Made by a program: the position numbers and the translations under genes
Shown: one piece after another, positions 1 to 59,338 of the stretch
Numbering within the stretch: the first letter of the stretch is position 1
Layout: each line of letters starts with the position of its first letter
Source of the DNA: Lentisphaerota bacterium
Lineage (GTDB): Bacteria > Verrucomicrobiota > Lentisphaeria > Victivallales > UBA1829
DNA: 64,000 nt
Assembly (NCBI GenBank): GCA_015061915.1
Contig: SUVR01000004.1
Span: 1 to 64,000 of the forward strand
Reading direction: 5' to 3'
The notes under the pieces: generated by a model
The model's input: the letters and a program-made list of their open reading frames with translations, nothing else
What the model was told of the DNA's origin: nothing
Database searches by the model: none

Positions 1-190
1 CGCCCTGAAACATGATTTTTCGTGACTTTTTCAAGAAAAAATCACAGCCGATGCGTCAAAATTGGTTTGACGCTGAAAAAATCAACTTTTTAACAAGATG
101 AGCCAAAACGTTTTGAAATTGGCTCAGGGTAATATACACCACATACAGGCGATTTCCAAAGGAAATTTGATGATTTTCCGGTAATTTTAC
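1..190. other. Hairpin-rich intergenic leader, no gene seen
   Basis: No convincing reading frame occurs before the first gene. The stretch holds four short inverted repeats in a row: 22-31 with 36-45 (one mismatch, 4-base loop), 53-60 with 66-73 (GCGTCAAA/TTTGACGC, 5-base loop), 99-106 with 119-126 (TGAGCCAA/TTGGCTCA) and 152-157 with 161-166. Some may be terminators of a gene to the left of the window, since T- or A-rich runs follow them. Their role is not known. Confidence 0.5.
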
Positions 191-41501: not shown

Positions 41502-42614
41502 ATGGCACAGAGATCATATCGGATCGCAGCACTGCCGGGCGACGGCACCGGTCCGGAAGTCGTGGCGGAAGGCATCAAAGTCATCAACGCCGCCGCAAAG
41601 AAATTCGGTTTTGAAATTTCCTTCGACACCTATAACTGGGGTGGCGATCATTATCTTGCGACCGGCGAACTTCTCCCCGATGATGCGGAAGAAACGCTGA
41701 AAAAGTATGATGCCGTCTTCCTGGGTGCAATCGGCTCCCCGAAAGTCAAACCCGGTATTCTGGAAAAAGGTATCCTGCTCCGTCTCCGTTTTGCACTGGA
41801 TCAGTACATCAACCTGCGTCCGGTCAAACTGTTCCCCGGCGTGGAATGTCCTCTCGTCGGCAAGGGTCCGGAAGATATTGACTACGTGGTGGTCCGTGAA
41901 AATACCGGCGACGTCTATACCGGTATGGGCGGAGCCTCTCAGGTCGGTACCCCGGATGAAGTCGCAGTTCAGGAAATGGTCTACACCCGTAAACAGGTCG
42001 ACCGCTGCCTGAAGTACGCTTTTGAACTTGCCCGCAAACGCCACAGCAAGGAAAATCCGTGGAAAGGTCTGAGCGCAGAAGATAAAGCTGCCGGATACAC
42101 CGCACAGCTCACCCTCTGCGGCAAAACCAACGTGCTGACTTATGTGTTCGGTATGTGGGAACGGGCATTCCATGAAATGGGCAAACAGTACCCCGATGTG
42201 AAACTGAACTACTGCCATATCGATGCCACCTGTATGTGGATGGTCAAAAACCCGGAATGGTTCGACGTGATCGTGACCGCCAATATGTTCGGCGACATCA
42301 TCACCGACCTCGCAGCGATGACCAGCGGCGGTATGGGCATCTCCGCCGGCGGTAACCTGAACCCCGAAGGCGTCAGTATGTTTGAACCCATCGGCGGCTC
42401 CGCTCCGAAATATACCGGCTTGGGCGTCATCAACCCCTGCGCCGCCATCCTCGCCGGCGCAATGATGTTGGACTATCTGGGCGAAACCGAAGCTGCAAAG
42501 GCAATCGAAAACTCCGTGGCGTTCTGCACCGAAAAGAAACTGAAATCCCTCTCCGCCGGTAAAATGGGTTACTCCACCAGCGGCGTGGGCGATCTCGTGG
42601 CAGAAAATCTCTGA
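41502..42614 (+). CDS. leuB: 3-isopropylmalate dehydrogenase
   Basis: 370 residues; beta-decarboxylating NAD dehydrogenase for the third step of leucine synthesis. Visible features are the start LPGDGTGPEVV, the substrate helix LEKGILLRLRFALDQYINLRP, VVRENTGDVYTG, GKTNVLTY with the catalytic lysine, the metal site DVIVTANMFGDIITD and the NAD-binding GSAPKYTG. The wording of the substrate helix is of the actinobacterial LeuB type rather than the enterobacterial one; tartrate or homoisocitrate dehydrogenase is a less likely alternative. AGGAG precedes the start. No other leu gene is close. Confidence 0.9.
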   Translation: MAQRSYRIAALPGDGTGPEVVAEGIKVINAAAKKFGFEISFDTYNWGGDHYLATGELLPDDAEETLKKYDAVFLGAIGSPKVKPGILEKGILLRLRFALDQYINLRPVKLFPGVECPLVGKGPEDIDYVVVRENTGDVYTGMGGASQVGTPDEVAVQEMVYTRKQVDRCLKYAFELARKRHSKENPWKGLSAEDKAAGYTAQLTLCGKTNVLTYVFGMWERAFHEMGKQYPDVKLNYCHIDATCMWMVKNPEWFDVIVTANMFGDIITDLAAMTSGGMGISAGGNLNPEGVSMFEPIGGSAPKYTGLGVINPCAAILAGAMMLDYLGETEAAKAIENSVAFCTEKKLKSLSAGKMGYSTSGVGDLVAENL

Positions 42615-42667
42615 GATCAAACTGCTGGATAGACACGCCCGCTGAAAAAACAACGCGGCACGGCAGC

Positions 42668-42710
42668 AGCGGCATGAGCAAAAAAATGCTCATGCCGCTT
42701 CGCTTTTTTT
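42668..42710 (+). terminator. Probable intrinsic terminator of leuB (arm 1)
   Basis: Arm 1 of the cloverleaf, 13 base pairs with an A6 loop, is followed after 4 bases by seven T (42704-42710) in the leuB direction. Confidence 0.65.
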
Positions 42711-42737
42711 CTGCGCACCACGCTTTTGCGTGCGCAG

Positions 42738-42772
42738 AAAAAAGCGGCGCCCGGTCCGTTGGGACCGGGCGC
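42738..42772 (-). terminator. Probable intrinsic terminator of the sigma factor gene (arm 3)
   Basis: Read on the minus strand, arm 3 (11 base pairs) is followed after 3 bases by six T. It lies 54 bases after the sigma-factor stop. Confidence 0.6.
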
Positions 42773-42826
42773 GCTGCCGTGCCGCGTGTTTTTTCATTGC
42801 GGGCGGAGACGGTGATCAAAGACAGC

Positions 42827-43426
42827 TTAAAGTTCTTCTTTCAACCGTTCGATTTCTTCGGTCAAACGCTGTTTGACGCGTTGTTTGTAGACATAAATAC
42901 TGCTTTCTGCCAGTCCCAGTTTTACGGCGATCTCCGGTACGGGGATCCCCTGTCGGCACATAGCGAACACCTGCAGAGTTTTCCGGTCGAAATTACCGGA
43001 GATATTCTTCAGTGCCAGTTCCGGCAGATACCGTTCCCATTCCTGTTCGGCGAGTGCCTCCACTTCCGGACGGATCGTCATTTCTTCTGAATCATCATTG
43101 CCCCAGTCGAGGGTGGAAAGGGATATATGGGAAGGACCGTTGGCGCGGATAAAATTTTTCGCGGCATTTCCGGCGATACAGCAGATCCAGGAACGGAAGC
43201 GGCCTTTTTCCGGCTTGTATTGAAACTCCGGCATTGCATTCCAGATTTTCACAAGCGTGATCTGTACAACTTCATCGGCATCATGGTGATTCAGTCCGAT
43301 ACGCCGTACAAGATTGTAGATATATTTCCGGTAATAAGCAGTAAACTCCGCCCACGCCCGGTCATCATTCTGATCTTTTGCCTTGCCGATCAACGTTACA
43401 CGTGTCAGCATACTGTCTTCACTCAT
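42827..43426 (-). CDS. ECF-type RNA polymerase sigma factor
   Basis: 199 residues. Region 2 is clear (YIYNLVRRIGLNHHDADEVVQITLVKIW...FRSWICCIAGNAAKNFIR), as is a region 4 helix-turn-helix (GIPVPEIAVKLGLAESSIYVYKQRVKQRL). There is no region 1 or 3, as expected for ECF factors. A longer frame from 43477 would start upstream of the predicted transcript start; ATG 43426, preceded by GAGAAGGTGAAAG, is chosen. No anti-sigma gene is adjacent, so control is probably transcriptional or through a protein elsewhere. Confidence 0.9.
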   Translation of the reverse strand: MSEDSMLTRVTLIGKAKDQNDDRAWAEFTAYYRKYIYNLVRRIGLNHHDADEVVQITLVKIWNAMPEFQYKPEKGRFRSWICCIAGNAAKNFIRANGPSHISLSTLDWGNDDSEEMTIRPEVEALAEQEWERYLPELALKNISGNFDRKTLQVFAMCRQGIPVPEIAVKLGLAESSIYVYKQRVKQRLTEEIERLKEEL

Positions 43427-43475
43427 GAACTTTCTTTCACCTTCTCCGGTCTGTCCAACGAACCGGTTTCGTATC

Positions 43476-43503
43476 ATTATAATGCTTTTTTTTCACTTTT
43501 CCA
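43476..43503 (-). promoter_or_regulatory. Predicted sigma-factor gene promoter
   Basis: On the minus strand, TGGAAA (43503-43498), a 16-base spacer and TATAAT (43481-43476). Confidence 0.5.
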
Positions 43504-59160: not shown

Positions 59161-59338
59161 GGCAAAAAAATTCATTTGAAGATCCGGAAAGCACTTTGCA
59201 GCAACGAATCGCCCTGTTTTTGACGACTCCCCCCTACCCCCGCACAAAGTCCGGTCGTCCGTCAAAAACAGACCCGTTTGGATCACCGGGGAACGTTTCC
59301 CCGGCGACATAATGGTTTTGAGCGTCAAACAAAAGCAC
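59161..59338. other. Intergenic structured region between prfB and phosphatase gene
   Basis: No gene seen. CTGTTTTTGACG (59214-59225) pairs exactly with CGTCAAAAACAG (59260-59271) around a 34-base loop, with GACGAC/GTCGTC as a competing inner pairing. A second hairpin, CCGGGGAA/TTCCCCGG (59286-59293 with 59297-59304), has a 3-base loop. A GTTTG/CAAAC pair (59276-59280 with 59326-59330) encloses that hairpin. Together they could form a structured transcript or a double-stranded end signal; I know no matching family. Confidence 0.5.

Follow-up and report, generated by a model that had tools for sequence, protein, structure and literature searches.

Why should two converging genes be separated by a three-armed junction in one genus, when a single hairpin is enough elsewhere? 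The question is raised by a gap of 212 nt that separates the stop codon of a leuB-type gene from that of a sigma factor gene in the window, i.e., the whole 64-kb stretch of DNA analyzed from the draft genome of a gut bacterium (G000). Using thermodynamic folding of this gap, we observe that it is filled by an inverted-repeat structure with the geometry that an earlier note had proposed from the same letters: a perfect outer stem of 14 pairs around three hairpins, including perfect arms of 13 and 11 pairs, with one free base at the junction, and with the neighboring genes which that note had named (Table 1).

A three-armed cloverleaf and its copies by shape

The outer stem of the window element runs on, with small bulges, through an A6/T6 tract to its outermost bases. 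The region from 42610 to 42830 folds with a minimum free energy of -96.4 kcal/mol as DNA and -145.9 kcal/mol as RNA (z = -14.5 and -15.1, respectively), and 0 of 200 dinucleotide shuffles were as stable, which bears out the claim that chance cannot explain the structure. A terminator scan called arm 1 on the plus strand and arm 3 on the minus strand, confirming that the T tracts of these arms are oriented correctly for both genes: arm 1 with the T7 behind it matches an intrinsic terminator for the leuB-type gene, and arm 3, read on the minus strand with its CGC and T6, matches one for the sigma factor gene. The element therefore presents a GC-rich hairpin and a T tract on both strands, as is required of a bidirectional terminator, and its outer stem has an A6/T6 of its own besides these tracts.

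Table 1. Coordinates of the cloverleaf between the two converging genes, and of a separate dispersed repeat
Feature	Position	Strand	Description
leuB-type isopropylmalate/isocitrate dehydrogenase gene (Iso_dh)	41502-42614	+	convergent, on the left; 21 nt between stop codon and element
Cloverleaf, whole	42636-42805		outer stem around three hairpins
Outer stem, 5′ strand	42636-42667		inner 14 nt perfectly paired; A6 at 42645-42650
Outer stem, inner perfect part	42654-42667 / 42773-42786		14 pairs, from the fold
Arm 1	42668-42699	+	13 perfect pairs, loop of A
Free junction base	42700		sole free base
Arm 2	42701-42746		19 pairs, small asymmetry; base formed by T7 (42704-42710) paired with A6 (42738-42743)
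Arm 3	42747-42772	-	11 perfect pairs; CGC and T6 come next on the minus strand
Outer stem, 3′ strand	42773-42805		inner 14 nt at 42773-42786; T6 at 42789-42794
ECF-like sigma factor gene (sigma-70 region 2 protein)	42827-43477	-	convergent, on the right; 21 nt between stop codon and element
Dispersed inverted repeat CTGTTTTTGACG...CGTCAAAAACAG	window 59214-59271; L136:9078-9134; L121:5539-5596; L128:6911-6971; L130:3664-3721; L152:3695-3753; G001 L191, L234		copies

A BLAST search with the window element against its own genome, 60 relatives and phages found only its own locus and the ortholog in a congener (G001), which sits between the same two genes, and thus no second copy in its own genome. 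The relatives of its leuB indicate that the bacterium is of the Lentisphaeria/Victivallales type, and no cloverleaf was present behind leuB at the leuB loci of other Lentisphaerae-related genomes. Our systematic search by shape gave a different picture. In a folding scan with sliding windows over 782 kb of G000 (31% of the genome, made up of the 64-kb window plus 36 further stretches), we identified 26 elements of the same architecture, i.e., an outer stem and exactly three arms, with 25 obtained by parsing the folds and one more located at L147:2751-2866. This is about one three-armed cloverleaf per 30,000 bases, and extrapolates to roughly 80 in the whole genome. The outer stems have 14 to 39 pairs, the junction has 0 to 6 free bases in 25 of the 26 elements and 10 in the element at L138:13837, and G-T pairs make up only about 2% of all stem pairs. 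Cloverleaves form a distinct outlier class in the scan: the automatic search found 21 three-armed structures with at least 45 pairs, and the three two-armed structures and one four-armed structure above this threshold were each either part of one cloverleaf or of far weaker folding energy. Five of the 26 elements fell below the thresholds of the automatic scan, and were recognized by fold parsing alone. The convergent gap at L147:2689-2922 contains an AT-richer cloverleaf, the one added to the parsed set, with further long hairpins on both sides.

In the single congener that we compared, at least eight cloverleaves are present in the sample analyzed; both genomes are draft assemblies, G000 of 31 contigs and G001 of 350. 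Run on 574 kb from other genera of the family and on 679 kb from the same order and diverse bacteria, this detector gave no three-armed element of a comparable kind.

These elements are alike in shape, and unlike in sequence and in the lengths of their parts. The majority of the 325 possible pairs of elements have no alignable sequence; nine pairs are similar at E ≤ 1e-3 (mean of 0.5 in resampled controls), with the best pair, L124 and L140:4491, 77% identical over 88 nt. These nine weak sequence matches hint at some shared ancestry or exchange among elements, and short words such as CCGGAGC recur. Since the elements share almost no sequence, it is their shape that is preserved. No element examined against Rfam (the window element and those at seven sampled loci) had a match at gathering score; the only Rfam matches seen were a tRNA in the window and, elsewhere, a TPP riboswitch, located on the minus strand at L145:10037-10139.

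The genome also contains repeats of other kinds. A dispersed inverted repeat of about 58-61 nt, found in both congeners (Table 1), has a conserved sequence, unlike the cloverleaves, and its copies in the window and at L136 are followed by a GGGGAA..TTCCCC hairpin. Arrays at L121:5600-5960 and L135:6245-6481, with a unit containing CACCCCAGAGGGGTG and a GTGCCGC..GCGGCAC palindrome, differ from the cloverleaves in style. A common repeat of about 125 bp with two inverted repeats inside it opens three contigs (window 1-126, L124:1-124 on C1, and L125:1-126 on C2), and is probably the point where the assembly broke.

Position at gene ends and T tracts

Detailed examination of the gene context showed that 16 of the 26 elements lie between convergent genes, nine between tandem genes on the 3′ side of the upstream member, one is ambiguous and none lies between divergent genes. 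With genes called by a simple codon-score method and corrected by hand, the background in the sample is 70 convergent, 378 tandem and 72 divergent pairs (70 of 520 convergent, 13%), and the enrichment in convergent gaps has a binomial P of about 1.6e-8. All but one of the 26 follow a gene, and most start no more than 35 nt from a stop codon; this is the placing, in convergent gaps or just 3′ of a gene, that bidirectional terminators have. In the ten elements for which we checked the flanking genes, these genes have no function in common. Other convergent gaps in G000 have simple hairpins only, and at L150 a simple hairpin terminator is already present upstream of the cloverleaf.

T tracts are placed behind hairpins on both strands in about 20 of the 26 elements. 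In ten of these, T tracts of at least five are present 0-4 nt behind both arm 1 and the complement of arm 3, and together the two tracts make up the base of arm 2. About ten others have an arm with the order A tract, hairpin, T tract, which is the layout of a two-way terminator. A T tract of at least five is missing in the elements at L119:1309, L129:14510, L142:17271, L153:12780 and L153:18069, and the element at L144:1167 has a T4 only. In the tandem element at L140:10841, only the strand of the gene ending at that point has a T tract behind a hairpin. None of the elements consists of one hairpin stem common to both strands; all 26 have three arms and an enclosing stem. Both congeners have Rho, and with it a means of termination besides intrinsic terminators; loss of Rho was therefore rejected as a reason for such elaborate structures.

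Conservation of shape in a congener

G001 is about 88% identical to G000 in DNA sequence, and at all eight alignable loci the element is present with its tracts and three arms retained, i.e., none of the eight is an empty site. Comparison of the stems showed changes on both sides with pairing kept. For example, the outer stem at L151:12662 reads GGCGCAGTCCC in G000 and GGCGCGGTCCC in G001, with the partner strand changed too. In the window element, the tip of arm 1 and the 27-nt tip of arm 2 are each present in G001 as the exact reverse complement, and arm 3 has changed on both sides of its stem.

To this we added a simulation in which 100 copies of each G000 element were randomly mutated with the same number of substitutions as found in its G001 copy. 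The substitutions cost these copies much stability: the real copy beat 100 of 100 mutated copies in six of seven comparisons, and 99 of 100 in the seventh; these seven pairs leave out L151, where the alignment overextended to 296 nt. We take this simulation as the main evidence, because structure-aligned counts of stem changes (28 double and 8 single) lean toward pairing by construction; counting pairs from sequence alone is confounded by indels and inversions. The earlier note had looked to many copies with compensatory changes as its telling observation, and this is what 26 elements and both-sided stem changes in the congener provide; the opposite case that it had considered, a single copy without covariation, does not describe this element. 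Template switching between inverted repeats has been documented to homogenize arms and invert loops (PMC8604942, PMC8794818), and some of the covariation may accordingly come from mutation and not from selection.

A proposed compound terminator, its alternatives and known systems

On balance, and with limited confidence, we favor the explanation that the cloverleaf is a compound bidirectional terminator at gene ends, chiefly in convergent gaps, with its palindromes kept by selection and probably by template-switch correction. The transcript from each side would first fold its own terminal hairpin (arm 1 in that of the leuB-type gene, arm 3 in complementary form in that of the sigma factor gene), and behind each hairpin would come a U tract; these tracts are complementary to each other and form the base of arm 2. 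A transcript that read through would run into further hairpins and, in the window element, into the outer stem with its own A6/T6. Transcription is thus inferred to stop at the cloverleaf. Upkeep of the palindromes we likewise infer to involve template switching between inverted arms at replication, which would copy one arm onto the other and could invert a tip; the inverted tips of arms 1 and 2 match the loop inversions described for this process (PMC8794818, PMC8604942), and the both-sided stem changes are consistent with selection for pairing together with template switching. A compound terminator explains where the elements lie, their tracts and their persistence. It leaves unexplained the outer stem, the strict number of three arms and the copies without T tracts: since the transcript would stop at the U tract of arm 2, the outer stem would never form in RNA, yet it also changes on both sides.

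These same features favor the main rival, in which the structure acts as DNA: between convergent genes, each strand would extrude as a three-armed cruciform or a four-way junction, which would buffer supercoiling, block colliding polymerases or bind a junction protein. The outer stem and arm 2 are needless for termination and are nevertheless kept, exactly three arms meet at 0 to 10 free bases in all 26 elements, the scarcity of G-T pairs is expected if pairing counts on both strands, and the tip inversions show arms behaving as DNA hairpins, at least over evolutionary time. We consider this role doubtful all the same, since no dedicated protein was found, most elements have well-placed T tracts, and the genome encodes SbcD, part of a hairpin nuclease, whose presence also led us to reject loss of SbcCD as the reason why the palindromes survive. 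In addition, convergent regions tend to positive supercoiling, which is unfavorable to extrusion. A tentative broader proposal combines the two: a shape-defined class of element, strictly three-armed and closed at its junction, at dozens of convergent gene ends in one genus, with sequence free to change as inverted arms copy onto each other, and serving as a putative DNA-level insulator or topological buffer between converging polymerases besides terminating transcription.

The remaining explanations fit less of the evidence. Relics of an old dispersed mobile or composite hairpin element that, in the ancestor of this genus, came to rest at the ends of genes would be consistent with the nine similar pairs, the recurring words and the confinement to one genus among the samples searched; we regard such an origin as unlikely, given that most pairs share nothing, that BLAST found no second copy and that no site is empty in G001. 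Taken in its usual sense, the MITE- or REP-like mobile element suggested earlier is likewise not supported: with all eight sites occupied in the congener there is no sign of an active MITE or insertion element, copies with conserved sequence as in REP/REPIN families with RAYT are lacking by BLAST and by the pairwise comparison, and mobilization by a RAYT/Y1 transposase was rejected, as we found one Y1_Tnp fragment only (a 94-aa open frame). It is quite unlikely that the whole cloverleaf is a functionless by-product of template switching that goes on perfecting palindromes where gene ends are weakly constrained. The concerted change of arms and the exact inversion of tips are described effects of this process (PMC8794818, PMC8604942), but a by-product would leave unexplained why there are always three arms, why convergent gaps are preferred (P about 2e-8), why the tracts are kept and why related genera lack the element. 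Least probable, and in our judgment very unlikely, is a structured noncoding RNA or an mRNA 3′-end protector acting post-transcriptionally. The RNA fold is very stable and the elements adjoin stop codons; however, conserved loops or sequence are lacking, the complementary strand should fold about equally well because the palindromes are near-perfect, and the lack of an Rfam match gives no support to the earlier suggestion of a structured RNA, at least as a known family.

We found no description of this three-armed architecture in the open-licence literature. Sequence is the usual route to repeat and RNA families, whereas BLAST and Rfam are nearly blind to this one and folding alone revealed it, which suggests that bacteria can hold a genome-wide element purely by shape; the family also offers a natural test bed for selection versus template-switch correction as the source of compensatory change. 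Inverted repeats at gene ends have been described in E. coli (PMC6060812). Like bidirectional intrinsic terminators, e.g., those of Bacillus cereus (PMC5381666), the cloverleaves lie between convergent stop codons with a hairpin and T tract on both strands and compensatory stem changes, but those terminators are single hairpins, and not an outer stem around three tiled arms closed into a four-way junction. Hairpin-cluster terminators (PMC8355165) also place several adjacent hairpins near a stop codon; their number varies freely, with two the commonest and an exponential fall thereafter, and their stems are short, and that text does not mention branched or convergent/bidirectional arrangements, whereas the cloverleaf always has three arms, all of them inside a closing stem. 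REP, BIME and REPIN sequences with their RAYT transposases (PMC2817692, PMC3116915) are similar in having tens of palindromic extragenic copies per genome, but they are recognized by conserved sequence, and cloverleaves by shape only and in a genome where a RAYT-like gene is essentially absent. Finally, the concerted change of both arms and the exact inversion of tips resemble template-switch arm homogenization and spacer inversion (PMC8604942, PMC8794818), which is a mutational process in existing hairpins, whereas the cloverleaves are a class of genomic element.
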